Source: Streptomyces sp. Act143
Lineage (GTDB): Bacteria > Actinomycetota > Actinomycetes > Streptomycetales > Streptomycetaceae
DNA: 64,000 bases
Reading direction: 5' to 3'
Assembly (NCBI RefSeq): GCF_003143935.1
Contig: NZ_QFRX01000001.1
Location: 223,129-287,128 of the forward strand
Shown here: piece after piece, positions 35,848-53,702 of the stretch
Layout of the letters: each line of letters opens with the position of its first letter
How positions within the stretch are numbered: the first letter of the stretch is position 1
Translations under genes and position numbers: made by a program
Notes under the pieces: model-generated
Database searches by the model: none
Seen by the model: the letters and a program-made list of their open reading frames with translations, nothing else
What the model was told of the DNA's origin: nothing

Positions 35848-38529
35848 CTAGACGTCAGCGGCCCCTGCCCGCCCGTAGTAGGCCGCGCGCATGAGGTCCT
35901 GCATGTCGTCCAGCATCGGCATCCGGGGGTTCGCCGGTGCGCACTGGTCCTCGTACGCGTTGAGGGCCTGCTGGGGGAGGGCGTCGAGGAACGCCTTCTC
36001 CGCGACGCCGAGGGAGCGGAACGACGGTTCGATGCCGACGGCGTCGCGCAGGCGCTCCACGGCCGAGGCGAGGGACTCGACGCCCTCGGCGGGGGTCGCG
36101 GCCGGCAGGCCGAGGGTGCGGGCGATGTCCTGGAAGCGCTCGGGCGCCCGGTAGTTCTCGTACTTGGGCCAGCCGGTCAGCTTCGTGGGGACCGTGCCGT
36201 TGTAGCGGATGACGTGCGGCAGCAGCACCGCGTTGGTGCGGCCGTGCGCGATGTGGAAGCCGGCGCCGAGGGTGTGCGACATGGCGTGGACGATGCCGAG
36301 GAAGGCGTTGCCGAAGGCCATGCCCGCGATGGTGCCCGCGTTGTGCATCTTCTCCCTGGCCTCGGGGACACAGCCGGTGACCGACGCCTCGATGTTGTCG
36401 AAGATCAGGCGGATCGCGTGCAGGGCGAGACCGTCGGTGAAGTCGTTGGCGTAGACCGACACATAGGCCTCTATGGCGTGGGTGAGGGCGTCGAAGCCGC
36501 TGTCGGCCGCCAGCGCGGCGGGCAGCTCGGTGGTGAGGAGCGGGTCGACGATGGCCACGCTGGGGGTGAGCGCATAGTCGGCCAGCGGGTACTTCTTGCC
36601 CGTCGTGGGGTCGGAGATCACCGCGAAGGGCGTGACCTCGGCGCCGGTGCCGGAGGTGGTGGGCACACAGACCAGGCGGGCGCGGGCACCGAGCACCGGG
36701 AAGCGGAAGGCGCGCTTGCGGATGTCGGAGAACTTCTGCCGCATGTCCGCGAAGTCGACGTCCGGGTGCTCGTACAGCAGCCACATCACCTTCGCCGCGT
36801 CCATCGGCGAGCCGCCGCCCAGCGCGATGATGGTGTCCGGGCCGAACTCCCGCATGAGGTCGGCGCCGTGGCGCACGGAGTCGATGCTCGGCTCGGGTTC
36901 GACGTTGTCGATGATCTGGAGGGTGACCGGCTCAGGCCGGCGTTGCAGGACGCGGCTCACCCGGTCGACGAAGCCGAGGCGGGTCATGGTGGTGTCGGTG
37001 ACGATCGTGACGCGCCGGACGTCCGGCATCGAGGAGAGGTAGCGGATGGCCTGCGGCTCGAAGTAGATCTTCGGCGGCACCTTGAACCACTGGAGGTTGT
37101 TGCGGCGGCTGGAGACCCGCTTGACATTCAGCAACTGGACCGCGGAGACGTTGTTGGACACCGAGGTGCTGCCCCAGGAGCCGCAGCCGAGGGTGAGCGA
37201 GGGCAGCAGGCCGTTGTAGATGCCGCCGATGGCACCCTGCGAGGAGGGGGCGTTGACGATGATCCGTACCGTCTTCATGCGCCTGCCGTACGCCTCCGCG
37301 AGTTCCCGGTCCTCGGTGTGGATGACGGCGCTGTGGCCCTGGCCGTGGAAGGCGACCATGTCGGCGGCCAGGTCGAAGCCCTGCGGTGCGGAACCGGCGC
37401 GCAGCACGGCGAGCACCGGGCAGAGCTTCTCGCGGGTCAGCGGCTCGTGCGGGCCGACCCGCTCGGCCTCGACGAGGATGACAGAGGTGTCGGCGGGCAC
37501 GGTGAAGCCGGCCTGTTCGGCGATCCACGCCGGACTCTGCCCGACGGCCGCGGAGTTGACCTTGGGTTCGCAGCCGCTGCCCGCGGCCCGGTTGGCCGGG
37601 AACAGGAAGGTCTCCAGCTTCGCCTTCTCCTCGGCCGTCGCCAAGTAGGCGTGCAGAGTGCGGAATTCGGCCAGGGCGGCGTCGTAGATCTCCTCGTCGA
37701 GGATGACGGCCTGCTCCGAGGCGCAGATCATGCCGTTGTCGAACGACTTCGAGAGGACCAGGTCGTTGACGGCGCGGCGCAGCTTCGCGCTCTTGTGCAC
37801 ATACGCGGGTACGTTGCCGGCGCCGACGCCGAGGGCGGGCTTGCCCGCCGAATACGCGGCCCGGACCATGCCGTTGCCGCCGGTGGCGAGGATGAGCGAG
37901 ATGCCCGGGTGCCGCATCAGCGCGCCGGTGGCCTCGACCGACGGGGTCTCGATCCACTGGACGCAGTGCTCGGGGGCGCCCGCGGCCACGGCGGCGTCCC
38001 GGACGACCCGGGCGGCCTCGGCGCTGCACCGCTGGGCGGAGGGGTGGAAGGCGAAGACCACCGGGTTACGGGTCTTCAGCGCCATCAGCGCCTTGAAAAT
38101 GGTGGTGGAGGTCGGGTTGGTGACGGGCGTGATGGCGGCCACCACACCTACCGGCTCGGCGATCTCGACCATGTCGTCGATGTCGTCCCGGGCGATCACA
38201 CCGACGGTCTTCATCCGGCCCATGCTGTGGGTCACGTGTTCGCAGGCGAACATGTTCTTGGCCGCCTTGTCCTCGAACACCCCCCGCCCGGTCTCGTCCA
38301 CCGCCAGCCGGGCCAGCGCGGTGTGCCGGTCCAGGGCGGCGACCGACGCCTTCTTCACGATGTGGTCGACCCGCTCCTGGTCCAGGGCGTCGTAGTCGGC
38401 CAGTGCCTTCAGCCCGTTCGTGACCAGCCGGTCGACGGCGACGTCGATGTCCGACGGCGCCTCCGCCAGTGCCTCCGACGGCGCCTCGGTCGGGGCGGCG
38501 GTCGCGGTCCGGTCGTCGTGGCGGGTCAT
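35848..38529 (-). CDS. adhE: Bifunctional acetaldehyde-CoA/alcohol dehydrogenase AdhE
   Basis: An 893-aa fusion enzyme that reduces acetyl-CoA to acetaldehyde and then ethanol, oxidising two NADH, a fermentative outlet when oxygen is short. The N-terminal aldehyde dehydrogenase half has the catalytic C269 in KSFDNGMICASEQAV and the nucleotide-binding VGVGAGNVPAYV. The C-terminal half, from about residue 470, is an iron-dependent alcohol dehydrogenase with GGGSPMDAAKVMW, the metal ligands in FDALTHAIEAYVS and HAMSHTLGAGFHIAHGRTNA. Length is normal for AdhE. ATG 38529 follows GGAGG. A 14-bp hairpin and a DevR-like box lie upstream. Such an enzyme is unusual in an obligately aerobic Streptomyces and fits a hypoxia role. 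Confidence 0.95.
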   Translation of the reverse strand: MTRHDDRTATAAPTEAPSEALAEAPSDIDVAVDRLVTNGLKALADYDALDQERVDHIVKKASVAALDRHTALARLAVDETGRGVFEDKAAKNMFACEHVTHSMGRMKTVGVIARDDIDDMVEIAEPVGVVAAITPVTNPTSTTIFKALMALKTRNPVVFAFHPSAQRCSAEAARVVRDAAVAAGAPEHCVQWIETPSVEATGALMRHPGISLILATGGNGMVRAAYSAGKPALGVGAGNVPAYVHKSAKLRRAVNDLVLSKSFDNGMICASEQAVILDEEIYDAALAEFRTLHAYLATAEEKAKLETFLFPANRAAGSGCEPKVNSAAVGQSPAWIAEQAGFTVPADTSVILVEAERVGPHEPLTREKLCPVLAVLRAGSAPQGFDLAADMVAFHGQGHSAVIHTEDRELAEAYGRRMKTVRIIVNAPSSQGAIGGIYNGLLPSLTLGCGSWGSTSVSNNVSAVQLLNVKRVSSRRNNLQWFKVPPKIYFEPQAIRYLSSMPDVRRVTIVTDTTMTRLGFVDRVSRVLQRRPEPVTLQIIDNVEPEPSIDSVRHGADLMREFGPDTIIALGGGSPMDAAKVMWLLYEHPDVDFADMRQKFSDIRKRAFRFPVLGARARLVCVPTTSGTGAEVTPFAVISDPTTGKKYPLADYALTPSVAIVDPLLTTELPAALAADSGFDALTHAIEAYVSVYANDFTDGLALHAIRLIFDNIEASVTGCVPEAREKMHNAGTIAGMAFGNAFLGIVHAMSHTLGAGFHIAHGRTNAVLLPHVIRYNGTVPTKLTGWPKYENYRAPERFQDIARTLGLPAATPAEGVESLASAVERLRDAVGIEPSFRSLGVAEKAFLDALPQQALNAYEDQCAPANPRMPMLDDMQDLMRAAYYGRAGAADV

Positions 38530-38581
38530 GGGTGTGCCTCCGTCGTCAAATGGTGTGCCGGCGTGGCCGGCGGGCCCGTGA

Positions 38582-38617
38582 GGTGAGCGGCGCCGCGAGG
38601 GACCGGCGCCGCTCACC
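38582..38617 (-). promoter_or_regulatory. Perfect 14-bp hairpin in the adhE leader
   Basis: GGTGAGCGGCGCCG pairs exactly with CGGCGCCGCTCACC over an 8-base loop, 53 bp upstream of adhE. It can be the terminator of the upstream cupin gene or a leader structure of adhE. Confidence 0.6.
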
Positions 38618-38695
38618 ACCCACCCTCCCTCCGGCACCGCGGCGCCACGCAGGTCCGCCCGGTCCGTGATCGTCGTCCGACCGGCCCCCGAACAC

Positions 38696-40579: not shown

Positions 40580-41425
40580 ATGAGCGTGCTGACCCTTGCC
40601 TCGGACCCCGAGGACGCCTCGGCCCTGCAGAGCGCCGAGGCGCATCATGCCCGCCTCGCCGGGGAGTTGGCGGGGCGCGTGAAGATGCTGTTCACCGCTG
40701 TGGACCGCGATCCGATCGCTGCTGAGAAGATCCACGCCGGGCTGGTGGCCTTCTGCGACGGCTCGCTGCTGCCGCACGCGGCCGCTGAGGAGGCGGTGCT
40801 CTACCCCGCCGCCCGTGACATGCCCGAGGCCCGCCTGCTCGTCGAGAGTCTCGTCGGCGAGCACCGTTGTTTCGGCGCGCTCGTCGACGCACTGCGCACG
40901 GCACCCGGTCCGGCGGCGGCGGTCGCGGACGCCCGGGCCCTCGAGGTCCTTTTCGAGGAACACGTGGCCAAGGAGAACGGACTCGTGCTGCCGCTGCTCG
41001 CGATGGCGTCGGAGGTGTCCTTGGCTGCCCTTCTGTCGGACATGCATAGCCGGCTCGCGAACGAGCCGGGCAGCGGAAGCGACCAGGACGCCCAAGGCGG
41101 CCAGGACGGCCAGGACGGCCAGGACGGCCAGGACGGCCAGGACGGCCAGAGCGACGGTTGCGGCGGCCAGTGCGGCTGTGGTGGCGCGGCAGAAGAGACG
41201 GCCGAGCCCGAACTGGACGTACGAGAGGTCCCGCACTCGCTCCGCCACGCCACGGTCTTCGGCGCACTCGACGCCGTCCCGGCGGGCACCGCCATGGTGC
41301 TGGTCGCCCCGCACGACCCGGTCCCGTTGCTCACGCAGATCGAAGAGCGCAACCCGGGTGTCTTCGTCGCGGAGTACCTGGAACGCGGCCCCGAGACCTG
41401 GCGGCTGCGGCTCAGCAGGCGTTGA
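40580..41425 (+). CDS. Hemerythrin-like (HHE) plus DUF2249 protein
   Basis: A 281-aa protein with two domains. Residues 1 to about 145 form a hemerythrin-like four-helix bundle with the iron ligands HH at 22-23, H66 and E70 (PHAAAEEAVLYP), H95 (GEHRCF) and H128/E132 (EEHVAKENGLVLP). Residues about 208-281 are a DUF2249 domain (ELDVREVPHSLRHATVFGAL, then EYLERGPETWRLRL). A Gly-Gln-Asp repeat and a Cys-rich patch (DGCGGQCGCGG) link them. HHE-DUF2249 proteins occur beside nitrite/NO genes and may handle oxygen or nitric oxide. It begins the cluster leading to nirK. Confidence 0.88.
   Translation: MSVLTLASDPEDASALQSAEAHHARLAGELAGRVKMLFTAVDRDPIAAEKIHAGLVAFCDGSLLPHAAAEEAVLYPAARDMPEARLLVESLVGEHRCFGALVDALRTAPGPAAAVADARALEVLFEEHVAKENGLVLPLLAMASEVSLAALLSDMHSRLANEPGSGSDQDAQGGQDGQDGQDGQDGQDGQSDGCGGQCGCGGAAEETAEPELDVREVPHSLRHATVFGALDAVPAGTAMVLVAPHDPVPLLTQIEERNPGVFVAEYLERGPETWRLRLSRR
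41099..41143 (+). repeat. 9-bp coding repeat (GQD) in the HHE-DUF2249 linker
   Basis: Five exact copies of GGCCAGGAC plus a degenerate sixth, encoding Gly-Gln-Asp. Repeat number is likely to vary between strains. Confidence 0.9.
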
Positions 41426-42276: not shown

Positions 42277-43695
42277 ATGAACACCGCCGAATCCGGCGAA
42301 GCGATGAACTCGGGCGGTGCCGCCGATGCGACGGCTTCGGCCGGTCCCGCCGACGCGGAGTTGTCCGTCCCCACCGCGGCGAGCCCGCCCACCCCCGCCA
42401 ACGCCCCCCACTCGCCCACCCACCCCGGCGCGCCCACCCCGTCCCCCCACGCCATCCGACGTCAGCGGCACGACGTAGCGGAGCGGCCCTTCATCGTCAT
42501 CTGGGAGTCCACCCGGGCCTGCCCGCTGGCCTGTCTGCACTGTCGTGCCGAGGCCGTGCCCGGTCGTGATCCGCGCGAGTTGGACACCGCCGCCGCCCAG
42601 GACCTGCTGCGGCAGGTAGCCGCCTTCGGGCAGCCCGCGCCGCTGTTCGTCATCACCGGCGGCGACCCCTTCCAGCGCCCCGATCTGGCCGAACTCATCG
42701 CCTACGGCCGGGAGATCGGGGTCCGCGTCGCCGTCTCACCGTCCGGCACCCCGACCCTCACCGCGGAACGACTGGGGGAGCTGCACGCGGCGGGCGCGGT
42801 CGGGCTGTCGCTGAGCCTGGACGGGTCGACGGCCGACATCCACGACACGTTCCGCGGTGTCCCCGGGGTGTTCCGCTGGACCCTGGACGCCTGGGACGCC
42901 GCCCGCGCCCTCGGCATGAAGGCGCAGATCAACACCACGGTCACCCGGCGCAATCTGCACGACCTGCCCGACATCGTCCGCCTCGTCGCCGACCACGGGG
43001 CGATGCTGTGGAGCGCCTTCTTCCTGGTGCCCACCGGCCGTGGCCGCGCCCTCGGTGCCCTCACCCCCGCCGAGGTGGAGGACGTACTGAACTTCGTCCA
43101 CGACGTGGGTCTGACGGTGCCCGCCAAGACCACCGAGGCCCACCACTTCCGTCGCGTCGCCTTGCAGCGCCAGGTCCTCGCCGCCACCGGCGACGACCAC
43201 GTGGCGGTCCTCGGACTGGGCCCGCTGTACCGCGAGTTGCGGGCGAGGGCCGCCGAACTGGGCCTGGACGCGGGGGAGCGGCGGGCCCGGCGGCCGCCCC
43301 TGGACGTCAACGCGGGGCGCGGTTTCGTGTTCGTCTCGCACACCGGCACCGTCCACCCCAGCGGGTTCCTGCCGCTCGGTGCGGGCAGCGTCCGCGCGAC
43401 ACCCCTGACGTCGATCTACCGCACCTCACCGCTGTTCACCGCGCTGCGGGATCCGGACATGCTCGGCGGCCGGTGCGGCGCCTGCGAGTTCCGCGCGGTC
43501 TGCGGCGGCTCGCGGTCCAGGGCGTACGGCGTCACCGGCGACCCGTACGCCGAGGAGCCGTGGTGCGGTTACGTCCCCGGTTCGTTCCCCCACCAGCGGG
43601 AGCTGGCCGCGCTCCTGAGCGCCCGACCACCCCTACGTCCCCGCCCGGGCAACGCCCGGGCCGGCAAGGAGCAGCGTGTCCGGCACGATCGATGA
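42277..43695 (+). CDS. Radical SAM enzyme with C-terminal SPASM-like cysteines
   Basis: A 472-aa radical SAM protein. After a poorly conserved 60-residue leader the core begins FIVIWESTRACPLACLHC (in two parts), containing the CxxxCxxC that binds the SAM-reducing 4Fe-4S cluster. GGDPFQRPDL is the GGxP motif. The C-terminal cysteines CGACEFRAVC and a final Cys (EEPWCGY) suggest an auxiliary cluster. The layout is that of the NirJ/AhbD group (haem precursor maturation) and of peptide-modifying SPASM enzymes. Its gene overlaps nirK by 20 bp, so a role in a haem or copper cofactor for nitrite reduction is a reasonable inference, not proven. The start is uncertain (ATG 42277 or 42304). Confidence 0.88.
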   Translation: MNTAESGEAMNSGGAADATASAGPADAELSVPTAASPPTPANAPHSPTHPGAPTPSPHAIRRQRHDVAERPFIVIWESTRACPLACLHCRAEAVPGRDPRELDTAAAQDLLRQVAAFGQPAPLFVITGGDPFQRPDLAELIAYGREIGVRVAVSPSGTPTLTAERLGELHAAGAVGLSLSLDGSTADIHDTFRGVPGVFRWTLDAWDAARALGMKAQINTTVTRRNLHDLPDIVRLVADHGAMLWSAFFLVPTGRGRALGALTPAEVEDVLNFVHDVGLTVPAKTTEAHHFRRVALQRQVLAATGDDHVAVLGLGPLYRELRARAAELGLDAGERRARRPPLDVNAGRGFVFVSHTGTVHPSGFLPLGAGSVRATPLTSIYRTSPLFTALRDPDMLGGRCGACEFRAVCGGSRSRAYGVTGDPYAEEPWCGYVPGSFPHQRELAALLSARPPLRPRPGNARAGKEQRVRHDR

Positions 43696-46297
43696 CCCAG
43701 CCGTCGGCGGCGGGCGCCCGGCCGGCAGGTTCAAGGAGTCCAGCCTGCGGGGCCGGCACCTGGCCGCCCATGTCGTGGTCGCGGCCTGGGCCGTGCTCGC
43801 GCTGCTGGCGGCGAGCGCGCAGCAGACGCTGCCCGTGGCCCGCTGGCTGGCCATCCACCTGTTCCTGCTCGGCGCCGCCACCACCGCCATCGTGGTGTGG
43901 AGCGAACACTTCGCCGTCGCCCTGCTCCACGCCCCACGACCCGACCGGCGGTGGAGCGATGCCCGCCTGACCGGCGTCAACAGCGGTGTCGTCGGCGTCC
44001 TCGCCGGGGTGTGGGCCGACCTGCCCGTGCTCACCGGCGCAGGGTGCGCGCTGCTGATCACCGCCGTCACCGCGCACCTGGTGGTGCTCGTCCGGATGGG
44101 CCGCGGCGCGGTGGGCGGCCGGCTCGCGCCGCTCGCCGACTACTACCGGGCCGCCGCGGCGGCCCTGGTGGTCGGTGCGGTGCTGGGCTGGCTGCTGGCC
44201 ACCGGCAGGGCCGGGCCGCGGCACTTCGCCGGTCTGAAGCTGGCCCATGTGCACGTGACCCTGCTCGGCTGGATCGGACTGCCCGTCCTGGGCACGCTGT
44301 TCATGCTCTGGCCGACCGTGCTGGGGGTGCGGATGGCCGAGCGCACGACCCGGCTGGCGCGCCGGGTGCTGGTGCTGACCGGGGGCGGGCTCGCCGTCGC
44401 GGTCGCCGGACTGTCCGTCGGCGGGCGCCCGCTCGCCGTGCTGGGCGTCGCGGGGTACGCGGCCGGCGTCGGCATGGCGGTGCAGGTGTTCGCCCGTACG
44501 GTGCGCCGCCGGCCGGCGATCTCGGCGGCGGCCGCGTGGAGTCTGGCCGCCGCTGTGGGATGGCTGACCGTCGGCGTGGTCGCCGACCTGGTGCTGCTGG
44601 CCTTCCAGCGGCCGGCCGACGTCCAGGACGACATCGGCTCCCTGGTCCCGGTCCTGCTCACCGGCCTGGTCGCCCAGGTCCTCATCGGCGCCCTCACCTA
44701 CCTGCTGCCCATCGTGCTGGCCGCCGGCCCCAAGGAGCGGGCCGCGCTGCGGGCGGTCCTCGAACGGGGCTGGGTGCCACGGCTCGCCGTCCTCAACACC
44801 GGCGTCGCCCTGCTCGCCCTTCCGCTGCCCGACCCCAGCGGCGTCATCAGCACGCTGCTGATCGGGGCGGGCGGCGGCACGTTCCTCGCGCTGACGGCGG
44901 CGGTGCTGATCCGCAGCCGGCGGGCGGCCGGCCGGAACCCGGGTGGAACCGGCGGCGGGTCCCGGCGCCCCGCCCTGTGGGGCACCGCCGCAGGCGTGAC
45001 GGCGATCGTGCTGGCCGTGCTCATGGCCAACAGCGGCGGGACCACGAACGACGAGGCGAGCGGCGCCAAAGCGGCGAGCTCGGGCAACGGCACCGCCCGC
45101 ACGGTCGCCGTCACCCTGGCCGACATGCGCATCAGCCCGGCCCGCGTCGAGGTCGCCGCAGGCACCACGGTGCGGCTGAAGGTCACCAACACCGATGTCC
45201 AACGCCACGACCTCAAGGTCGAGGACGGCCCCGCCACCCCGCTGCTCGCCAAGGGCGACACCCGTGAACTCGACCTCGGACCGGTCACCGAGAGCCGTGA
45301 GGCGTGGTGCACCCTGCCGGGCCACCGGGCGGCCGGGATGACCATGGACATCGTGGTGAAGGATGGCGACTCGGCGGCCGGCACCGACGGGCACGCGGGA
45401 CACACCGCCGCCGCGGACGGCCCGGGTCCGGATCTCTCCGGCGACTTCTCCACCGGCTGGCGGGCCCGCGACGCGTCCCTCGCTCCCGCGTCCGGCGGCA
45501 CGCTCCACAAGGCCGAACTCCACGCCGCCCGCACCACGGTGGAGGTGGCCCCGGGCGTCACTCAGCAGATGTGGACCTTCGGCGGCACCGCACCCGGCCC
45601 CACCCTGCACGGCAAGGTCGGCGACGTCTTCGAGATCACCCTCGTCAACGACGACGGGGACATGGGCCACGGCATCGACTTCCACGCCGGCTCCCTCGCC
45701 CCCGACAAGCCCATGCGCACCATCGGGCCCGGCGAGCGGCTGGTCTACCGCTTCCGCGCCGAGAAGGCCGGCGCCTGGCTGTACCACTGCAGCACGTCAC
45801 CGATGCTCCAGCACCTGGGCAACGGCATGTACGGCGCCGTCGTCATCGACCCGCCGGACCTGGCCGAGGTGGACCACGAGTACGTGCTGGTGTCGTCCGA
45901 GCTCTTCCTCGGCACGCCCGGCAGCACGGCCCAGGTGACGAAGATGCGTCAGGACACCCCGGACGCCTGGGTGTTCAACGGCGTCGCCGACCAGTACGCC
46001 CGGCAGCCGCTGAAGGCGAAGGCCGGCGAACGGGCCCGGTTCTGGGTGGTCGCCGCCGGGCCCAGTGACGGCGTCGCCTTCCACGTCGTGGGCAGCGTCT
46101 TCGACACCGTGTACAAGGAAGGCGCCTACCTGCTGAAGTCCGGCGACCAGGGCGGTGCGCAGGTGCTGGATCTGGCGCCCGCGCAGGGCGGGTTCGTCGA
46201 GACGACGTTCCCCGCGGCCGGGCACTACGCCTTCGTCGACCACGACATGCGCCACGCCGAGGCCGGTGCGCACGGCATGGTGGAGGTGGGCGGCTGA
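43676..46297 (+). CDS. nirK: Membrane-anchored copper nitrite reductase fused to a cupredoxin
   Basis: An 873-aa three-part protein that should reduce nitrite to nitric oxide outside the membrane. Residues 1 to about 450 form a multi-span membrane domain (around ten to twelve segments) with histidines in WLAIHLFLLG and KLAHVHVTLLGWIG. Residues about 475-562 are a plastocyanin-like domain with type-1 copper ligands H511, C545, H550 and M555 (WCTLPGHRAAGM). Residues about 605-873 are a two-domain copper nitrite reductase: type-1 ligands H665, C705, H713, M718; type-2 ligands H670, H704 and H856; catalytic D668 (HGIDFH) and H803 (AFHVVG). All expected ligands are present. GTG 43676 follows CAAGGAG and overlaps the radical SAM gene. 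The fused cupredoxin probably passes electrons from the membrane part to the reductase. Confidence 0.92.
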   Translation: MSGTIDDPAVGGGRPAGRFKESSLRGRHLAAHVVVAAWAVLALLAASAQQTLPVARWLAIHLFLLGAATTAIVVWSEHFAVALLHAPRPDRRWSDARLTGVNSGVVGVLAGVWADLPVLTGAGCALLITAVTAHLVVLVRMGRGAVGGRLAPLADYYRAAAAALVVGAVLGWLLATGRAGPRHFAGLKLAHVHVTLLGWIGLPVLGTLFMLWPTVLGVRMAERTTRLARRVLVLTGGGLAVAVAGLSVGGRPLAVLGVAGYAAGVGMAVQVFARTVRRRPAISAAAAWSLAAAVGWLTVGVVADLVLLAFQRPADVQDDIGSLVPVLLTGLVAQVLIGALTYLLPIVLAAGPKERAALRAVLERGWVPRLAVLNTGVALLALPLPDPSGVISTLLIGAGGGTFLALTAAVLIRSRRAAGRNPGGTGGGSRRPALWGTAAGVTAIVLAVLMANSGGTTNDEASGAKAASSGNGTARTVAVTLADMRISPARVEVAAGTTVRLKVTNTDVQRHDLKVEDGPATPLLAKGDTRELDLGPVTESREAWCTLPGHRAAGMTMDIVVKDGDSAAGTDGHAGHTAAADGPGPDLSGDFSTGWRARDASLAPASGGTLHKAELHAARTTVEVAPGVTQQMWTFGGTAPGPTLHGKVGDVFEITLVNDDGDMGHGIDFHAGSLAPDKPMRTIGPGERLVYRFRAEKAGAWLYHCSTSPMLQHLGNGMYGAVVIDPPDLAEVDHEYVLVSSELFLGTPGSTAQVTKMRQDTPDAWVFNGVADQYARQPLKAKAGERARFWVVAAGPSDGVAFHVVGSVFDTVYKEGAYLLKSGDQGGAQVLDLAPAQGGFVETTFPAAGHYAFVDHDMRHAEAGAHGMVEVGG

Positions 46298-46743
46298 TGG
46301 ACACCGTCGGCTGGTGGTCCCTGGTGCGCTTCGCGCACGTCGCGGGCGCCGCCCTGTGGGTCGGCGGTCAGCTGGCCCTTTCCCTGGTGGTCCTGCCGCT
46401 GGCCCGCCGTCTGCTCGCCCCGGAGGCCAGGGACGACTTCGCGGCGGCCGCCGGGCGCCGCTTCGGCATGCTGACCGGGGCGGTGTTCCTGCCCGTGCAA
46501 CTGGCCACCGGCTGGGCCATGGCCCGGCACAAGGGCGTCACCTGGGCCGCCCTCGCCGAACCCGGCTACGGGCGCACCCTGGCGGCCAAACTCGCCCTGT
46601 TCGTGGTGGTGATGCTCGCGGCGGCCGGCCACGGCATCGCCCATTCCCGAGGCCGCGCCGACCTGGCCCGGGCGCTGGCCGTCGTCTCCCTGGTCGGCTC
46701 GCTCGGCGTCGTCCTGCTCGCCACCGCCCTGCCCGCCACATGA
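46297..46743 (+). CDS. CopD-like membrane protein
   Basis: A 148-aa integral membrane protein with four predicted segments and a His in the first helix (VRFAHVAGAALWVGGQLAL). It also has GWAMARHKGVTW. It resembles the CopD/DUF4149 copper-export or haem-associated family. Its ATG overlaps the nirK stop by one base (TGATG), so it is translated with nirK. It may help load copper into the reductase or anchor electron transfer. Confidence 0.75.
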   Translation: MDTVGWWSLVRFAHVAGAALWVGGQLALSLVVLPLARRLLAPEARDDFAAAAGRRFGMLTGAVFLPVQLATGWAMARHKGVTWAALAEPGYGRTLAAKLALFVVVMLAAAGHGIAHSRGRADLARALAVVSLVGSLGVVLLATALPAT

Positions 46744-46791: not shown

Positions 46792-47778
46792 ATGCGCACG
46801 CAAGCCCCACTGGACGCGGTCACCGTGGAAACACTCCTGGCGGCAGCCGTGGCAGCACCCTCGATCCACAACACGCAGCCCTGGCACTTCCGCCTGGACC
46901 CCGGCGGCCAGGTACTGGAGGTCCACGCCGTGCCGGAGCGCACCCTGCCGCTGGCCGACCCCACGCACCGCGCCCAGTACCTGTCCGTCGGCGCGGCGGT
47001 GTTCAACCTCCGGGTCGCCGCCGTCCACCAGGGCCGCCGGCCGGAGGTGCGGCTGCTGCCGGACCCGCGCCGCCCCGGTCTGCTGGCCGCCGTACGACTG
47101 GCCGATCCGCTCGGTGCGGACGACCGGTTGGCGGACCCGGGTCTCTACGAGGCCGTCGCCCGTCGGCACACGAGCCGGATGCCGTTCACCGGACGTCCGG
47201 TGCCCGAGCCGATCGTGGCGGAGATGACCTCGGCCGCGTACGCCGCGGGAGCGCGCCTGCACCTACCCGACATCTCCGGCACACGACGGCTGCTGCGCCT
47301 GACCGCCGCGGCCGAGGCACGCAACCGGGCCCACCCGGGACGCAGCGCCGAGACCCTCGCCTGGATCACGGCCCCGGGATCGCAGAGCCCCTACGGTGTC
47401 CCCCTCACCGCCCTCGGCCCGCAGGACGCGGCCGAGCGGATGCCGATGAGGGACTTCACCAGCTCCGTCCCCGCCCTGCGCCGGCCCGGCCTGTGGTTCG
47501 AGCGTCACGTCCAGACGGCGCTGTTGTGGACGCCCCAGGACCGCCGCGAGGACTGGCTGCGGGCCGGCCAGGCGCTGCAGTACGTGCTGCTCACCGCGAC
47601 CGCCCACGGGCTGCGCACCTCGCTCCTGCACCAGGCCATGGAGTGGCCGGACCTGCGCGCCGAGGCCGCCGTCCCGCGCCACAAGCGATGCCATGCCCAC
47701 CTGCTGATCCGCTTCGGCTACGGCCCCGACGGCACCGGCACACCGCGGCAGTCCGCGCGGGCCGGTACGGCCGGATGA
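46792..47778 (+). CDS. Acg-family FMN-binding nitroreductase-like protein 1
   Basis: A 328-aa double-domain nitroreductase-like protein, opening APSIHNTQPWHFRLD (the first NTR strand) and ending SLLHQAMEWPDLR then a LIRFGYGPDG strand. Such proteins resemble mycobacterial Acg (Rv2032), a DosR-regulon member. Acg-type proteins have lost canonical NTR activity and may store or sense flavin. AGCAGGCATC precedes ATG 46792. It follows the CopD-like gene by 48 bp, so co-transcription with the nirK operon is likely. A paralogue lies at 54382-55389. Confidence 0.88.
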   Translation: MRTQAPLDAVTVETLLAAAVAAPSIHNTQPWHFRLDPGGQVLEVHAVPERTLPLADPTHRAQYLSVGAAVFNLRVAAVHQGRRPEVRLLPDPRRPGLLAAVRLADPLGADDRLADPGLYEAVARRHTSRMPFTGRPVPEPIVAEMTSAAYAAGARLHLPDISGTRRLLRLTAAAEARNRAHPGRSAETLAWITAPGSQSPYGVPLTALGPQDAAERMPMRDFTSSVPALRRPGLWFERHVQTALLWTPQDRREDWLRAGQALQYVLLTATAHGLRTSLLHQAMEWPDLRAEAAVPRHKRCHAHLLIRFGYGPDGTGTPRQSARAGTAG

Positions 47779-48268: not shown

Positions 48269-48362
48269 GCGCCACGGGGCCGGCGACCGTGCACGGGCGG
48301 ATCTTCGCGGAGCGGGCGGAGGGACGGTCGGGTCGTCCGCCGGGACCGTCTGCCGACCGCCA

Positions 48363-48376
48363 GGGACCCATGGCCC
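48363..48376. promoter_or_regulatory. DevR/OsdR-like box (narK)
   Basis: GGGACCCATGGCCC, 129 bp upstream of the narK start. Confidence 0.6.
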
Positions 48377-48504
48377 ATCCCTCCTGGGTCCGCTGTTGCC
48401 AACAGTGGTGGCGGGAAGCAGTCCCGCGGGCAAGGGGCCCGCGGTGCGTGCGTTCCCGGTGGCGCAGTTCCACGGACAACAGGAACAGGAAAGGGACGGA
48501 CGAC

Positions 48505-49788
48505 ATGGTCCAGCCGTTGAAGTCGCAGGGCGACAGCTCACCCACGGGCACCCCGGTGCCCCGCCGCGCATGGCTGACGCTGGCCCTGGCCACGGTCGGT
48601 TTCGCGGTGAACTTCTGGGCGTGGGCGCTGCTCAGCCCGCTCGGCCCGCGTTTCAAGGACAGCCTCGACCTGTCGTCGTTCCAGCAGTCGCTGCTGGTGG
48701 CGGTGCCCGTCGTGGTCGGCTCACTGGGCCGCATCCCGGTCGGCGCGCTGACCGACCGGTTCGGCGGCCGGGTGATGTTCCCGATCGTGTCGGCGGCCAC
48801 CATCGTGCCGGTGCTCTATCTGGGGCTGGCCGGCCATGACTCCCTGGCCGCCCTGCTGGCCGGCGGGTTCTTCCTCGGCATCGGCGGCACCGCGTTCGCC
48901 GTCGGCGTGCCGCTGGTCAACGCCTGGTTCCCGCCCGAGCGGCGCGGCCTGGCCATCGGACTGTTCGGCGCCGGCATGGGCGGCACCGCCATCAGCGCCC
49001 TGACCACGGTGAAGCTGGTCGACGCGCACCGCATGTCCACTCCCTTCCTGATCACCGCCGCGGTCCTGGCCGTGTACGCGGTGACCGCCGCGCTGCTGCT
49101 GCGCGATGCCCCCGGACGCACTGTGCCGACCGAGTCGCCCGCCCGCCGGCTGGCCGCCGTCCTCCGGCTGCCCATCACCTGGCAGGCATCCGCCCTGTAC
49201 GCGGTCGCCTTCGGCGGCTACGTGGCCTTCTCCGTGTACCTGCCCACCTACCTCAAGACCGGCTACGACCTGTCCCAGGCCGACGCCGCCAACCGCATGG
49301 CCGGGTTCGTCCTCCTCGCCGTCGCGATGCGTCCGGTGGGCGGCTGGCTGTCCGACCGGACGGGCCCGGTCCGGGTCCTGGCGGGCGCGCTGGCCGTGGT
49401 CGTCGCCGGTGCCGTGATGCAGTCCTTCACCCTCCCCCTGGCCCCGGTCGGCACAGTCGCCTTCCTGTCCATGGCCGCCGCGCTCGGCGCGGGCAGCGGG
49501 GCGACCTTCGCCCTGGTCGCCCGGCGGACCCCGGCCGACCAGGTCGGCTCCGTCACCGGCGTGGTCGGCGCCGCGGGCGGACTGGGCGGCTTCCTTCCCC
49601 CGCTGGTGATGGGCTCGCTGTACGGCGAGTACGGCACGTACGCGGCCGGCCTCGTCCTGCTCGCGATCGTGGCCGCCGCCGCGCTGACCTTCACCCTCAC
49701 CGGGGTGCGCACCGCGCCGGACGGCGGCGACCGCGAACCCCGCACCGGTGGCCGCGGCGGCCACCGGCCCGCGCGCTCCGCGGCGTGA
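48505..49788 (+). CDS. narK: Nitrate/nitrite MFS transporter NarK
   Basis: A 427-aa major facilitator with 12 segments in the nitrate/nitrite porter family. It opens FAVNFWAWALLSPLGPRF and has VPVVVGSLGRIPVGALTDRFGGR. The nitrate signatures lie in FFLGIGGTAFAVGVPLVNAWFP (segment 4-5) and GAAGGLGGFLPPLVMG (segment 10-11). It probably exchanges nitrate and nitrite, and could supply nitrite to NirK. GAAAGGGACGG precedes ATG 48505. No nitrate reductase genes (narGHJI) lie in the window. NarK2 is a DosR target in mycobacteria, and a matching box sits upstream here. Confidence 0.92.
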   Translation: MVQPLKSQGDSSPTGTPVPRRAWLTLALATVGFAVNFWAWALLSPLGPRFKDSLDLSSFQQSLLVAVPVVVGSLGRIPVGALTDRFGGRVMFPIVSAATIVPVLYLGLAGHDSLAALLAGGFFLGIGGTAFAVGVPLVNAWFPPERRGLAIGLFGAGMGGTAISALTTVKLVDAHRMSTPFLITAAVLAVYAVTAALLLRDAPGRTVPTESPARRLAAVLRLPITWQASALYAVAFGGYVAFSVYLPTYLKTGYDLSQADAANRMAGFVLLAVAMRPVGGWLSDRTGPVRVLAGALAVVVAGAVMQSFTLPLAPVGTVAFLSMAAALGAGSGATFALVARRTPADQVGSVTGVVGAAGGLGGFLPPLVMGSLYGEYGTYAAGLVLLAIVAAAALTFTLTGVRTAPDGGDREPRTGGRGGHRPARSAA

Positions 49789-49833: not shown

Positions 49834-50319
49834 GTGTGCGAGTACTGCGGTTGCCAGGCCCTGGAGACGATCGACGAGCTCACGCAGGAACATGACGAGG
49901 TGGTGCGCCTGATCAGCCATCTCCGCGACGCCCACCGGCACGGCGGTGTGACGCGGATGGCGGAACTCGCCCGGGAGATCGCGCGGGTGCTCGGCCCGCA
50001 CACCCGGGTCGAGGAGCACGGTCTGTTCCCCGCCCTGGCCGGGGACTTCCCCGACCAGATCGCCGCGCTGGAGGCCGAGCACCGCCGCATCGAGGCGGTG
50101 CTGGCCGAGGCGAGCGGCGCGTTCCTGACCGATCCGACCTGGCCGGGCCGGCTCATGGAGGCGATGGCGGTCCTGCGGGACCACATCCTCAAGGAGCAGG
50201 ACGGCGTCTTCCCGGCGGCACTGGCCAACCTCAGCATCGAGCAGTGGGAAGCGGTCGAGGCGGCGCGCCTGGCGGCGGGCAGCACCCTGTCCCGTCCCGG
50301 CCGCCTGACGTCCCGCTGA
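49834..50319 (+). CDS. Hemerythrin-like HHE protein with N-terminal Cys motif
   Basis: A 161-aa hemerythrin-fold protein. The first residues CEYCGC form a Cys motif that could bind metal or redox-sense. Iron ligands expected are in LTQEHDEV (H20), GPHTRVEEHGLFP (H56, E60, H62) and LRDHILKEQDGVFP. It has no DUF2249 tail. It follows narK by 45 bp and shares its transcript probably. GAGGAGAAG precedes GTG 49834. It could bind oxygen or nitric oxide. A 10-bp hairpin follows its stop. Confidence 0.88.
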   Translation: MCEYCGCQALETIDELTQEHDEVVRLISHLRDAHRHGGVTRMAELAREIARVLGPHTRVEEHGLFPALAGDFPDQIAALEAEHRRIEAVLAEASGAFLTDPTWPGRLMEAMAVLRDHILKEQDGVFPAALANLSIEQWEAVEAARLAAGSTLSRPGRLTSR

Positions 50320-51124: not shown

Positions 51125-51793
51125 ATGACCAGCAGCACCAAGCCCACCGCGCACCACCTCAACCCCCTGGCCCGGCACGGCGGACGGCGAACCGGGCTCG
51201 CCCCGCAGACCACCGTCGGCGCCTCCCGCTCGCTGGCCTGGCTCCTGATCGTCACCGGCGCCCTCGGCAGCCTGGCATCCTTCGTGATCACCATCGACAA
51301 GTTCAGGCTCCTCCAGGACCCGGCCTTCGCGCCCTCCTGCAACCTCAGTCCGGTGCTGTCCTGCGCGAACGTGATGGGCAGTGACCAGGCAGGGGTGTTC
51401 GGGTTCCCCAACCCGCTGCTGGGCCTGCTCACCTACCCGGTCGTCGCCGCCGTCGGGCTCGCCCTGCTGGCCGGGGCGCGGTTCCGGCGCTGGTTCTGGC
51501 TCGGGCTGAACGCCGGCACGTTGCTCGGCGCGGGCTTCTGCATGTGGCTGATGACGCAGGCGCTGTACGAGATCGGCGCACTGTGCCTGTGGTGCTGCCT
51601 GGCCTGGGCGGCCACCATCGCGATGTTCTGGTACCTCACCGTGCACAATCTCCGGCACGGTGTCATCCGGGCCCCTCGCGTCCTGGTCGCCGGAGTGCGG
51701 GAGTTCCACTGGGCGGTGCCGACCGCCTGGTACCTGAGCATCGTCATGCTGATCGCCACCCGCTGGTGGGACTACTGGCGGACCCTGCTCTGA
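51125..51793 (+). CDS. VKOR-like membrane oxidoreductase
   Basis: A 222-aa protein with four to five membrane segments and the paired cysteines of bacterial vitamin K epoxide reductase homologues: C72 and C80 ([10 protein letters not shown]) outside the membrane, and the active CLWC at 154-157. VKOR homologues reoxidise DsbA-like partners and so make disulfide bonds in exported proteins, using quinone. It could support folding of the copper enzymes encoded nearby. It lies 67 bp after the 50539 gene. Confidence 0.88.
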
Positions 51794-51844
51794 ACCGCTC
51801 CCGCGCGCGTGCGGCACGTCGCAGCGAAGCCGGGTGCGAAGAGA

Positions 51845-51858
51845 GGGCCGTTGGGCCC
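51845..51858. promoter_or_regulatory. DevR/OsdR-like box (ctaD, distal)
   Basis: GGGCCGTTGGGCCC, 156 bp upstream of ctaD. Confidence 0.6.
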
Positions 51859-51876
51859 TGAACACGGTCCCCGCAG

Positions 51877-51890
51877 GGGCTGTTCGGCCC
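51877..51890. promoter_or_regulatory. DevR/OsdR-like box (ctaD, proximal)
   Basis: GGGCTGTTCGGCCC, one mismatch from the box, 124 bp upstream of ctaD and 32 bp from the distal copy. Confidence 0.55.
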
Positions 51891-52013
51891 TATCCGCACC
51901 CCCCGCCCCACCGTCGATCATGGGGCGGCGGCCGGGAGGGCCGAGTCCGTTCCCGCATCCACGGCACTTCCCGGCGCGTCGACCACACGCGCAGATCGGG
52001 AGGACACCGTCCG

Positions 52014-53702
52014 GTGGACGAGGCACAGACACAGCAGGTGGAGACCGTACGGCCGAGAGCCGACGTCACCGCGACGCCAGGGCAGACCGGGCGGGCCACC
52101 CGGCCGGCGTGGACGGAGTGGCTGACGACCACCGACCACAAGAAGATCGGGACGATGTACCTGGTCTCCGCGTTCGCGTTCTTCGTCGTCGGCGGCGTGA
52201 TGGCCCTGATGATGCGCGCCGAACTGGCCCGGCCCGGCCTCCAGATCATGTCCGCCGAGCAGTTCAACCAGGCGTTCACGATGCACGGCTCGATCATGCT
52301 GCTGATGTTCGCGATGCCGCTGTTCACCGGGTTCGCCAACTGGATCATGCCGCTCCAGATCGGCGCCCCGGACGTCGCCTTCCCCCGCCTGAACATGCTG
52401 GCCTACTGGCTGTTCCTGTTCGGCTCGTCGATCGCGGCGTTCGGTTTCCTCACCCCGGGCGGGGCCGCCGACTTCGGCTGGTTCCTGTACGCGCCGCTGT
52501 CGGACGCCGTGCACTCACCGGGGCTCGGCGCCGACCTGTGGATCATGGGCGTGGCCCTGTCCGGCTTCGGGTCGATCCTCGGCGCCGTCAACTTCATCAC
52601 CACGATCATCTGCATGCGGGCGCCGGGCATGACCATGTTCCGGATGCCGATCTTCACCTGGAACGTGCTGCTGACCGCGCTCCTGGTCCTGATCGTCTTC
52701 CCGGTCCTGGCCGCGGCGCTGTTCGCGCTGGAGTGCGACCGCAAGTTCGGCAGCCATGTCTTCGACGCGGCCAACGGCGGCGCGCTGCTGTGGCAGCACC
52801 TCTTCTGGTTCTTCGGGCATCCCGAGGTGTACATCCTGGCCCTGCCGTTCTTCGGGATCGTCTCCGAGGTGATCCCGGTCTTCGCCCGCAAGCCGATGTT
52901 CGGCTACATGGGCCTGATCGGCGCCACCATCGCCATCGCGGGCCTGTCGGTGACGGTGTGGGCGCACCACATGTACGTCACCGGCGGTGTGCTCCTGCCG
53001 TTCTTCTCCTTCATGACGTTCCTCATCGCGGTGCCGACCGGGGTGAAGTTCTTCAACTGGATCGGCACGATGTGGAAGGGCAGTCTGTCCTTCGAGACGC
53101 CGATGCTGTGGACCACGGGCTTCCTGATCACCTTCCTGTTCGGCGGCCTGACCGGGGTGATCCTGGCGTCCCCGCCGATGGACTTCCACCTCTCCGACTC
53201 GTACTTCGTCGTCGCGCACTTCCACTACACGGTGTTCGGCACGGTCGTGTACGCGATGTTCGCCGGATTCCACTTCTGGTGGCCCAAGTTCACCGGCAAG
53301 ATGCTCGACGAACGCCTCGGGAAGATCACCTTCTGGACGCTCACGGCCGGCTTCCACCTCACCTTCCTCGTCCAGCACTGGCTGGGCGCCGAGGGCATGC
53401 CCCGCCGCTACGCCGACTACCTGGCCGCCGACGGCTTCACGGCCCTCAACTCCCTCTCCACGATCGGGGCGTTCCTGCTGGGCCTGTCGATCCTGCCGTT
53501 CCTCTACAACGTCTGGAAGACCGCCAAGTACGGCAAGAAGATCGAGGTCGACGACCCGTGGGGCTACGGCCGCTCGCTGGAGTGGGCCACCTCCTGCCCG
53601 CCGCCCCGCCACAACTTCCGCACCCTGCCCCGTATCCGCTCCGAGTCCCCGGCGTTCGACCTGCACCACCCCGAGATCGCCGAACTCGACACGGTGGGCT
53701 GA
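52014..53702 (+). CDS. ctaD: Cytochrome c oxidase subunit I (CtaD)
   Basis: A 562-aa haem-copper oxidase catalytic subunit with 12 segments. Ligands are present: H91 and H404 for low-spin haem a; H402 for haem a3; H269, H318 and H319 for CuB; cross-link Tyr273; plus the proton-channel residues E271 (GHPEVY) and K345. It is a canonical A-type subunit I. It stands alone: no subunit II, III or haem A genes are in the window, so it must assemble with subunits encoded elsewhere. GTG 52014 follows GGGAGGAC. Two DevR-like boxes upstream suggest use at low oxygen. Confidence 0.95.

Follow-up and report, generated by a model that had tools for sequence, protein, structure and literature searches.

A copper nitrite reductase fused to a cupredoxin and to a membrane domain of predicted heme-copper-oxidase fold in Streptomyces sp. 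Act143

A three-part fusion gene

The stretch of DNA analyzed here, referred to as the window, comprises 64,000 nucleotides of contig NZ_QFRX01000001.1 from Streptomyces sp. Act143 (positions 223,129–287,128 of the forward strand). It contains a gene that encodes a multi-span membrane part, a type-1 cupredoxin, and a copper nitrite reductase (NirK) in one chain. This fusion architecture has been published before; what is new is the assignment of the transmembrane (TM) domain, from structure modeling and profile homology, to the fold of the heme-copper oxidases (HCOs). The gene and its parts, in window coordinates, are as follows.

43676–46297, plus strand: fusion gene for membrane part, cupredoxin, and copper nitrite reductase, 873 amino acids (aa) (Pfam, NCBIfam, phmmer, structure model)
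43730–44935, plus strand: residues 19–420, 12-TM domain of predicted HCO fold, without CuB-site histidines (structure model, fold matches, profile homology)
44969–45031, plus strand: residues 432–452, likely 13th TM helix taking the chain outside (hydropathy and charge count; predicted local distance difference test score (pLDDT) about 43–48)
45095–45361, plus strand: residues 474–562, cupredoxin with a CX4HX4M motif and ligands H511, C545, H550, and M555 (Pfam, conservation)
45488–46297, plus strand: residues 605–873, NirK domain with type-1 ligands H665, C705, H713, and M718, type-2 ligands H670, H704, and H856, and catalytic residues D668 and H803

The reading frame starts with GTG, has AAGGAG four bases upstream, overlaps the preceding gene by 20 bases, and continues for 873 codons in one frame. 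Its GC content at the three codon positions (0.76/0.54/0.95) follows the pattern of a real high-GC gene. When species genomes were scanned, 143 relatives emerged, and the 80 best (40 loci from Streptomyces, 40 from elsewhere) were retained. All three parts lie in one frame in 77 of these 80; L124 and L132 have no NirK match there, and L111, at a contig edge, has the TM part only. Full-length fusions were present in 9/61 genomes (Act143 and 60 relatives) and in 8 genomes from an even sample of 396 across the phylum. A chance reading frame was rejected on the strength of these 9 genomes and of the three-part order at the 77 loci. A first-pass annotation of this DNA had described an 873-residue chain with a membrane part, a four-ligand cupredoxin, and a complete NirK, and had suggested looking for the same architecture in other genomes. 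The reading frame, the Pfam matches, and conservation in a 60-row alignment (below) agree with that description, the search recovered the architecture at the frequencies given above, and the joining of a membrane part, a type-1 cupredoxin, and NirK in one chain is confirmed.

The cupredoxin and NirK domains retain their copper ligands

Pfam places a cupredoxin at residues 471–562 (two models) and a multicopper-oxidase/NirK domain at residues 619–727. In an alignment of 60 fusion proteins, consisting of the window protein and 59 of the 80 loci, the cupredoxin residues H511, C545, H550, and M555 are identical in every row, as are H665, D668, H670, H704, C705, H713, M718, and H803 of NirK. The remaining type-2 ligand, H856, is present in 59 rows, with a gap in the other. 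An incomplete catalytic site had been suspected from an apparently lost histidine in the segment HVVGSVFD; this was rejected, as H803 aligns with the histidine of the corresponding motif in the Hyphomicrobium denitrificans nitrite reductase (HdNiR).

NCBIfam model TIGR02376 (Cu_nitrite_red) matches residues 612–873 with an expectation value (E) of 3.5e-43 and 148 bits, below its curated cut-off of 296 bits, which is a naming rule and not a biochemical feature. The top phmmer match among solved chains is Nitrosomonas europaea NirK (4kns, E 8.3e-44), and the three-domain HdNiR (2dv6) aligns by sequence over residues 483–873. When the full-length model was searched with Foldseek, the best matches were the H. 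denitrificans enzymes 2dv6, 6tfd, and 6tfo (E 2.6e-29 for 2dv6). The modeled NirK part, a two-cupredoxin fold, fits single NirK chains with deviations of 2.4 Å (4kns) and 2.0 Å (3wia). That the NirK domain reduces nitrite to nitric oxide (NO) is very probable and the best-supported step of the mechanism proposed below.

The membrane domain has a predicted oxidase fold

An AlphaFold model of the TM region together with 63 relatives (pLDDT 88.9; predicted template modeling score (pTM) 0.87) contains twelve long helices and one short one. All six Foldseek matches to this model at E ≤ 0.001 are HCOs. Sequential structural alignment with VIA-align, for which Z of about 13 is the caution level with helical bundles, gave Z 32.2 both to the cbb3 oxidase chain 9g6b_A (396 residues, 3.1 Å) and to the NO reductase chain 4xyd_A (374 residues, 3.1 Å), and covers all 12 helices in order. 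Profile comparison points the same way, though the sequence homology is weak. A widened TM-family profile was built from 41 rows (five genes doubled) plus 34 of the 64 rows of a fused-locus alignment (63 of the 80 loci and the window), and was compared by hhalign with an HCO set of 19 rows, 18 of them distinct. The match has E 4.4e-6 and a probability of 87%, as against E 1.8e-3 for the reversed HCO profile and 0.24 for the major facilitator superfamily (MFS) as controls. NCBIfam ccoN also touches the membrane part faintly (residues 183–250, E 0.0031). Taken together, the modeled fold and the profile homology make it almost certain that the membrane domain has an oxidase-superfamily fold.

The helix register relative to oxidases is less straightforward. 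The best whole-profile alignment pairs TM helices V–X with HCO helices I–VI and places H191 on the helix II histidine of the oxidases, whereas the second pairs TM V–VIII with HCO IX–XII and places H191-x-H193 on the His-x-His of helix X. As a separate block, TM V–VIII matched HCO IX–XII best (E 4.7e-7; reversed 5.7e-4), followed by HCO I–IV (E 8.1e-5; reversed 0.32), and TM I–IV alone resembled none of the HCO blocks significantly (best E 0.039). When the HCO alignments were re-ordered by four-helix blocks, with block boundaries chosen by the analyst, local E values improved to 1.1e-7 and 1.4e-7 from 4.4e-6 in the native order, and global values to 3.5e-9 and 5.9e-11 from 5.1e-6 (reversed controls 6.7e-4 to 0.76). 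These profile results suggest a circular permutation of the HCO helix order, although the pseudo-symmetry of the fold can mimic such a shift, and the sequence register is unsettled.

Two invariant histidines and the predicted topology of the membrane domain

The histidines of the membrane domain that bear on cofactor binding are listed below, with positions from the 13-helix layout.

43856–43858, plus strand: H61, TM helix II, near the outer face; invariant, candidate heme ligand
43907–43909, plus strand: H78, TM helix II, near the inner face; common, not invariant
44075–44077, plus strand: H134, TM helix IV, inner half
44246–44248, plus strand: H191, TM helix VI, near the outer face; invariant, candidate heme ligand

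Conservation was evaluated in 36 distinct members of the TM family (14 fused, 22 encoded by separate genes) whose identity to the TM domain of the window ranges from 25 to 80%. H61 and H191 are the sole invariant histidine positions, each being His in 36/36. H134 is His in 14/14 fused and 0/22 separate members; H78 is His in 12/14 fused and 11/22 separate members, where in all 11 it occurs without H134; and H193 is His in 9/14 fused and 10/22 separate members. Among the 60 more closely related fused proteins, H61, H78, H134, and H191 are all His in every row. The "conserved His" of the first-pass annotation thus holds for H61 and H191 throughout the family, and for H78 and H134 among the close fusions but not across the wider set. 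No Cys or Met is conserved in at least 90% of the 36 members. Gln334 is Gln in all 36, yet is His in one of the 60 closer fusions; the idea that it occupies a histidine position was dropped, given that Q334 and H191 lie at different helix depths.

Canonical HCOs contain a set of six histidines, including the CuB histidines on helices VI and VII and a histidine on helix X. Only H61 and H191 occur family-wide in the TM domain, which has no histidine at all from residue 194 to its end. Because no histidine follows residue 193, the CuB ligands, the helix VII histidine pair, and the helix X heme ligands are absent in the native helix order, and a working, canonical oxidase or NO reductase was rejected for this domain. 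By our reading of oxidase anatomy, each pair among helices II, VI, and X flanks one heme pocket. In each of the three possible registers, TM helices II and VI correspond to two of these three helices, and we therefore propose a single bis-His heme near the outer face. From the model and the conservation pattern, the membrane domain is rather likely to bind heme. A second cofactor at H78 and H134 is speculation.

In the 13-helix layout, inner segments contain 27 Arg/Lys and outer segments 7, which places the N terminus inside, H61 and H191 near outer helix ends, and H78 and H134 toward the inner side. The chain would then be led outward by residues 432–452, and the cupredoxin and NirK domains are predicted to lie outside the membrane. 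This outward placement rests on hydropathy and charge because the 13th helix is modeled at pLDDT 43–48 only. It agrees with the earlier proposal of a membrane-tethered NirK with its own cupredoxin and with catalytic domains at the cell surface.

Distribution, separate-gene forms, and a single fused clade

Within the genus, 3/37 genomes (Act143 included) contain the full-length fusion, and its distribution is accordingly patchy. The non-Streptomyces loci among the best 80 include Actinomadura, Nonomuraea, Microbispora, Amycolatopsis, and Mycobacterium/Mycolicibacter. A full fusion was also observed on a contig labeled as an Acidobacteria metagenome-assembled genome (L099), where the TM part has 47% identity, by transfer or mis-binning. 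Viral contigs gave 12 pattern matches and no confirmed relative.

The TM module also exists as a standalone gene in other actinobacteria. Twenty loci were fetched for a reported separate TM match, and 17 were aligned (L045, L049, and L057 are broken, partial, or at a contig edge). A NirK-like gene lies beside the separate TM gene in 7/20 (L040, L041, L043, L048, L053, L056, and L059), being divergent in L041 and L043 (27% and 32% identity). In L048 and L053 a small Pfam cupredoxin gene lies between the two, such that all three modules are present as adjacent separate genes. In the 396-genome sample, a NirK-like match was found in 35/40 genomes with a separate TM gene and no fusion, compared with 48/348 genomes without a TM gene (Fisher test 1e-21, kinship ignored); this count took the two best candidates per genome and includes multicopper-oxidase-like and partial matches.

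A tree of NirK domains (50 rows) groups all 26 fused rows in one clade with support 100/99, and the six separate-gene forms fall outside it. Three duplicate contigs were dropped from the tree, as were NirK stretches that spanned fewer than about 200 residues or exceeded E 1e-15, by which L041 was lost; 13 loci were hand-picked for spread, and 12 of them passed (L112 did not). L017, which has no TM domain, is nested inside the fused clade, and we read it as a loss of that domain. One fusion event is the simplest account of this topology.

Other genes were observed around the separate TM genes. A scan of four neighbors, picked for an Rrf2-like look, found Rrf2-type regulators near the TM genes of L049, L051, L053, and L059, directly adjoining in L049, L053, and L059; the Rrf2 class holds NsrR and IscR. 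A UbiA-family gene is near the TM gene of L050, and reading frames without further assignment adjoin the TM genes at L050:4860-6065 (401 codons, no Pfam match) and L052:3237-4589 (450 codons).

Gene neighborhood and physiology

The fusion gene is surrounded by the following genes.

35848–38637, other strand: AdhE-type bifunctional acetaldehyde-CoA/alcohol dehydrogenase, fermentation-type, about 5 kb upstream of the fusion
40580–41425, plus strand: hemerythrin HHE plus DUF2249 protein (Pfam)
42277–43695, plus strand: TIGR04053 radical S-adenosylmethionine (SAM)/SPASM gene overlapping the fusion start (NCBIfam)
46297–46743, plus strand: CopD-like membrane protein of 148 aa overlapping the fusion stop (Pfam and NCBIfam matches below curated cut-offs)
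46792–47778, plus strand: Acg/Rv3131-family flavin mononucleotide oxidoreductase (NCBIfam)
48289–49788, plus strand: NarK-like nitrate/nitrite MFS transporter, start codon uncertain (TIGR00886, 207 bits, below the cut-off of 312)
49834–50319, plus strand: hemerythrin HHE protein (Pfam)
51125–53702: VKOR-family gene, then CtaD (subunit I of an aa3-type cytochrome oxidase), some 5 kb downstream of the fusion

The radical SAM gene is immediately upstream of the fusion in 39/40 Streptomyces loci and 1/40 others. It also scores with the AhbD and NirJ heme-enzyme models, and a heme or peptide modification is possible. The CopD-like gene is immediately downstream in 39/40 Streptomyces and 17/40 other loci (56/80 overall), and its H14 and H112 are conserved in at least 95% of 59 rows. 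At a guess, its product is a heme or copper membrane partner, maybe a small heme protein. Elsewhere in the genome, three NarG matches above cut-off are possible sources of nitrite, and there are four full-length COX1 matches, one being the CtaD of the window; the COX1-family matches are CtaD-like and none is NorB-like. A search for DosR/DevR operators near the genes gave no match, and a second scan gave 65 matches against 118 expected, with no enrichment.

These neighbors would be in keeping with a function in NO signaling or in the use of nitrite under hypoxia. S. coelicolor is reported to be without a gene for an NO-forming nitrite reductase (PMC4766573). Denitrification to N2O by way of NirK has been reported for Intrasporangium calvum, in which, on nitrate as growth substrate, nirK transcript levels increase together with nitrite production (PMC6349771). 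For the actinobacterial NirK (Clade 3), prevalence in nearly every biome is reported, with an N2O reductase rarely present alongside (PMC10999283). The earlier remark that such organisms are usually thought of as strictly aerobic is therefore only partly fair, given that prevalence and denitrification by I. calvum.

Proposed electron supply to NirK and its alternatives

The TM half has a predicted oxidase fold without the oxygen-reducing site, and this suggests a direct feed of electrons into nitrite reduction. The best overall explanation, to which we give about an even chance, is that a heme-type membrane module supplies an outward-facing NirK with electrons by way of the tethered cupredoxin. 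The membrane part would derive from the HCO superfamily. The CuB site and the histidine pair of helix VII would be gone, and H61 and H191 would remain, placed on two of the three pseudo-symmetric helices bordering a heme pocket in oxidases. The domain would bind a b-type heme near the outer face, and its electron source would be either menaquinol or a small membrane partner, namely the CopD-like product of the next gene. The flexibly tethered cupredoxin would receive the electrons and hand them on to the type-1 copper of NirK, in either its own or a neighboring subunit. The type-1 copper would in turn feed the type-2 copper, at which the membrane-tethered enzyme, as the usual trimer, would reduce nitrite to NO outside the cell. 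That electrons enter at the membrane domain could equally prove right or wrong, and the cupredoxin step is uncertain. For the first-pass annotation, which had electrons arriving from the quinone pool or the membrane domain, the direction is made plausible by the HCO-like fold and the two invariant histidines, with heme and quinol as tentative components.

A more specific and rather doubtful version holds that actinomycetes made an HCO fold into an electron-input module by loss of CuB and a circular permutation of one four-helix repeat, with a bis-His b heme retained or rebuilt between helices II and VI. Joining to a cupredoxin and NirK would then have produced a menaquinol:nitrite oxidoreductase in a single chain, forming NO outside the membrane with no bc complex involved. 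Within the fused lineage, H134, joined by H78 in most members, may add a second cofactor and so a transmembrane route; this is the weakest step because H78 is absent from 2/14 fused members.

Several observations weigh against electron supply by an oxidase-derived domain. Foldseek TM-scores for the HCO rows are moderate (TMq 0.45–0.64), and an earlier hhalign comparison with only five HCO sequences gave a probability of 12%. Among 31 TM-family members, ccoN matches five and COX1 two, all weakly (best COX1 E 0.0012); Pfam found no match, COX1 included, in the window protein's own TM region; and a TM-profile search of Protein Data Bank sequences returned no HCO and just two chance-level SemiSWEET matches. 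Heme binding and quinol oxidation are both deduced from the fold and from H61/H191. Residues 432–452 are clearly hydrophobic, yet are of low confidence in the full-length model. That model has a pTM of 0.58 and unstructured linkers, with pLDDT below 50 at 422–443, 445–472, and 564–583, and deviates from 2dv6 by 12 Å over both copper domains, for which reasons it does not fix the placement of the domains relative to one another. L017 shows that the TM domain is not required for the enzyme, and some actinobacterial NirK proteins are described as having the cupredoxin without a membrane domain (PMC4770552). Finally, the N-terminal copper of HdNiR is about 24 Å from the core copper in the crystal (PMC7201279).

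The main rival account draws on several of the same points. In it, the TM domain is an anchor only, a degenerate oxidase-like scaffold; electrons come from separate donors, such as a different cupredoxin or the cytochrome c that belongs to the bcc-aa3 branch; and the cupredoxin of the fusion has a structural role or is a vestige. Enzymes with NirK and cupredoxin in the absence of a TM domain, including L017, agree with this, as do the distance of the N-terminal copper from the core in HdNiR, a mutation of that extra copper reported to raise activity (PMC4770552), and the unstructured linkers, which vary from 12 to 33 and from 30 to 72 residues across the 60-row alignment. The HdNiR findings also weaken the donor role that had been assigned to the fusion's own cupredoxin, the presence of which is well supported. 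However, a single helix would suffice as an anchor, two histidines are invariant in the TM family down to 25% identity, the cupredoxin ligands are invariant in 60/60 fusions, and the module is also found next to NirK as a gene of its own, an arrangement in which covalent anchoring is impossible. On balance we consider a pure anchor unlikely. It is improbable that the membrane domain instead binds, senses, or removes the NO made by NirK, as an NnrS-like protein or a NorB remnant. The TM fold matches both NorB and cbb3 oxidase, the genome has no NorB-like COX1-family match, hemerythrin genes are nearby, and Rrf2-type regulators were seen near four separate TM genes in a scan aimed at them, but NO reduction of the NorB type is not expected of a domain that lacks FeB/CuB histidines and any histidine after residue 193, and NnrS (PF05940) is not among the ten families listed for the 31 TM-family members at E ≤ 1.

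A maturation role, in which the membrane domain and the CopD-like protein carry copper or heme across the membrane to load NirK, would account for the frequent adjacency of the CopD-like gene (56/80 loci), for the copper implied by the name CopD, and for the UbiA-family gene, CtaB-like by our reading, at L050. Yet the CopD matches are below curated cut-offs, and the invariant histidines lie within helices, as in cofactor sites, in a domain with no highly conserved Cys or Met; we regard this role as quite improbable. The least credible alternative takes the catalytic domain for a multicopper oxidase of the two-domain kind or for an inactive NirK. The TIGR02376 score below cut-off speaks for it, whereas the complete set of type-1, type-2, Asp, and His residues is conserved in the family and the best matches by sequence and structure are nitrite reductases.

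The HCO placement bears on the route by which electrons enter the NO-forming actinobacterial NirK, which is reported as prevalent. Together with two candidate heme ligands and the separate-gene versions, this placement makes the role of the TM domain testable by a few point mutants. If electron supply by the oxidase-like module is correct, it would exemplify the reuse of an oxidase fold that has lost its oxygen site.

Comparison with known systems

Decleyre et al. (2016) described actinobacterial NirK proteins of ∼900 residues with a cupredoxin and a 400-residue TM domain "of unknown function" (PMC4770552). The NirK type of Propionibacterium (Cutibacterium) acnes has about 900 aa with a ∼400-aa TM domain and a CX4HX4M cupredoxin N-terminal to NirK, and the window protein is the same in these features, the likeness being to the published description and not to the sequence. 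As architecture alone the fusion is thus a further example of a type in print since 2016, and the novelty that the first-pass annotation gave to it was overstated; what is new is the identification of the TM domain. A literature search, with subscription papers outside its reach, found no statement identifying the TM domain of actinobacterial NirK as oxidase-like.

Subunit I of the HCOs (CcoN, NorB, CtaD) shares with the TM domain of the window a 12-TM, three-fold pseudo-symmetric fold, profile homology, and a His-x-His helix motif. The TM domain differs in having no helix VII histidine pair, no CuB/FeB site, and a profile register shifted by four helices.

Among nitrite reductases, the three-domain H. 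denitrificans enzyme (2dv6, 6tfd, 6tfo) has an N-terminal cupredoxin followed by NirK, like the window protein, but is a hexamer with no membrane domain. In pulse radiolysis its N-terminal copper is reported to take up the electron first and pass it to the core of the adjacent monomer (PMC7201279), and pulsed electron–electron double resonance (PELDOR) work found distances hard to assign (PMC9358711). The solved chain of N. europaea NirK (4kns, 285 aa), unlike the window protein, has neither a cupredoxin fusion nor a TM domain. The heme domain of the Bradyrhizobium sp. ORS 375 copper nitrite reductase is soluble and not of the 12-TM fold. This four-domain enzyme (6the), by the title of its structure entry, combines heme, cupredoxin, and NirK in one chain.

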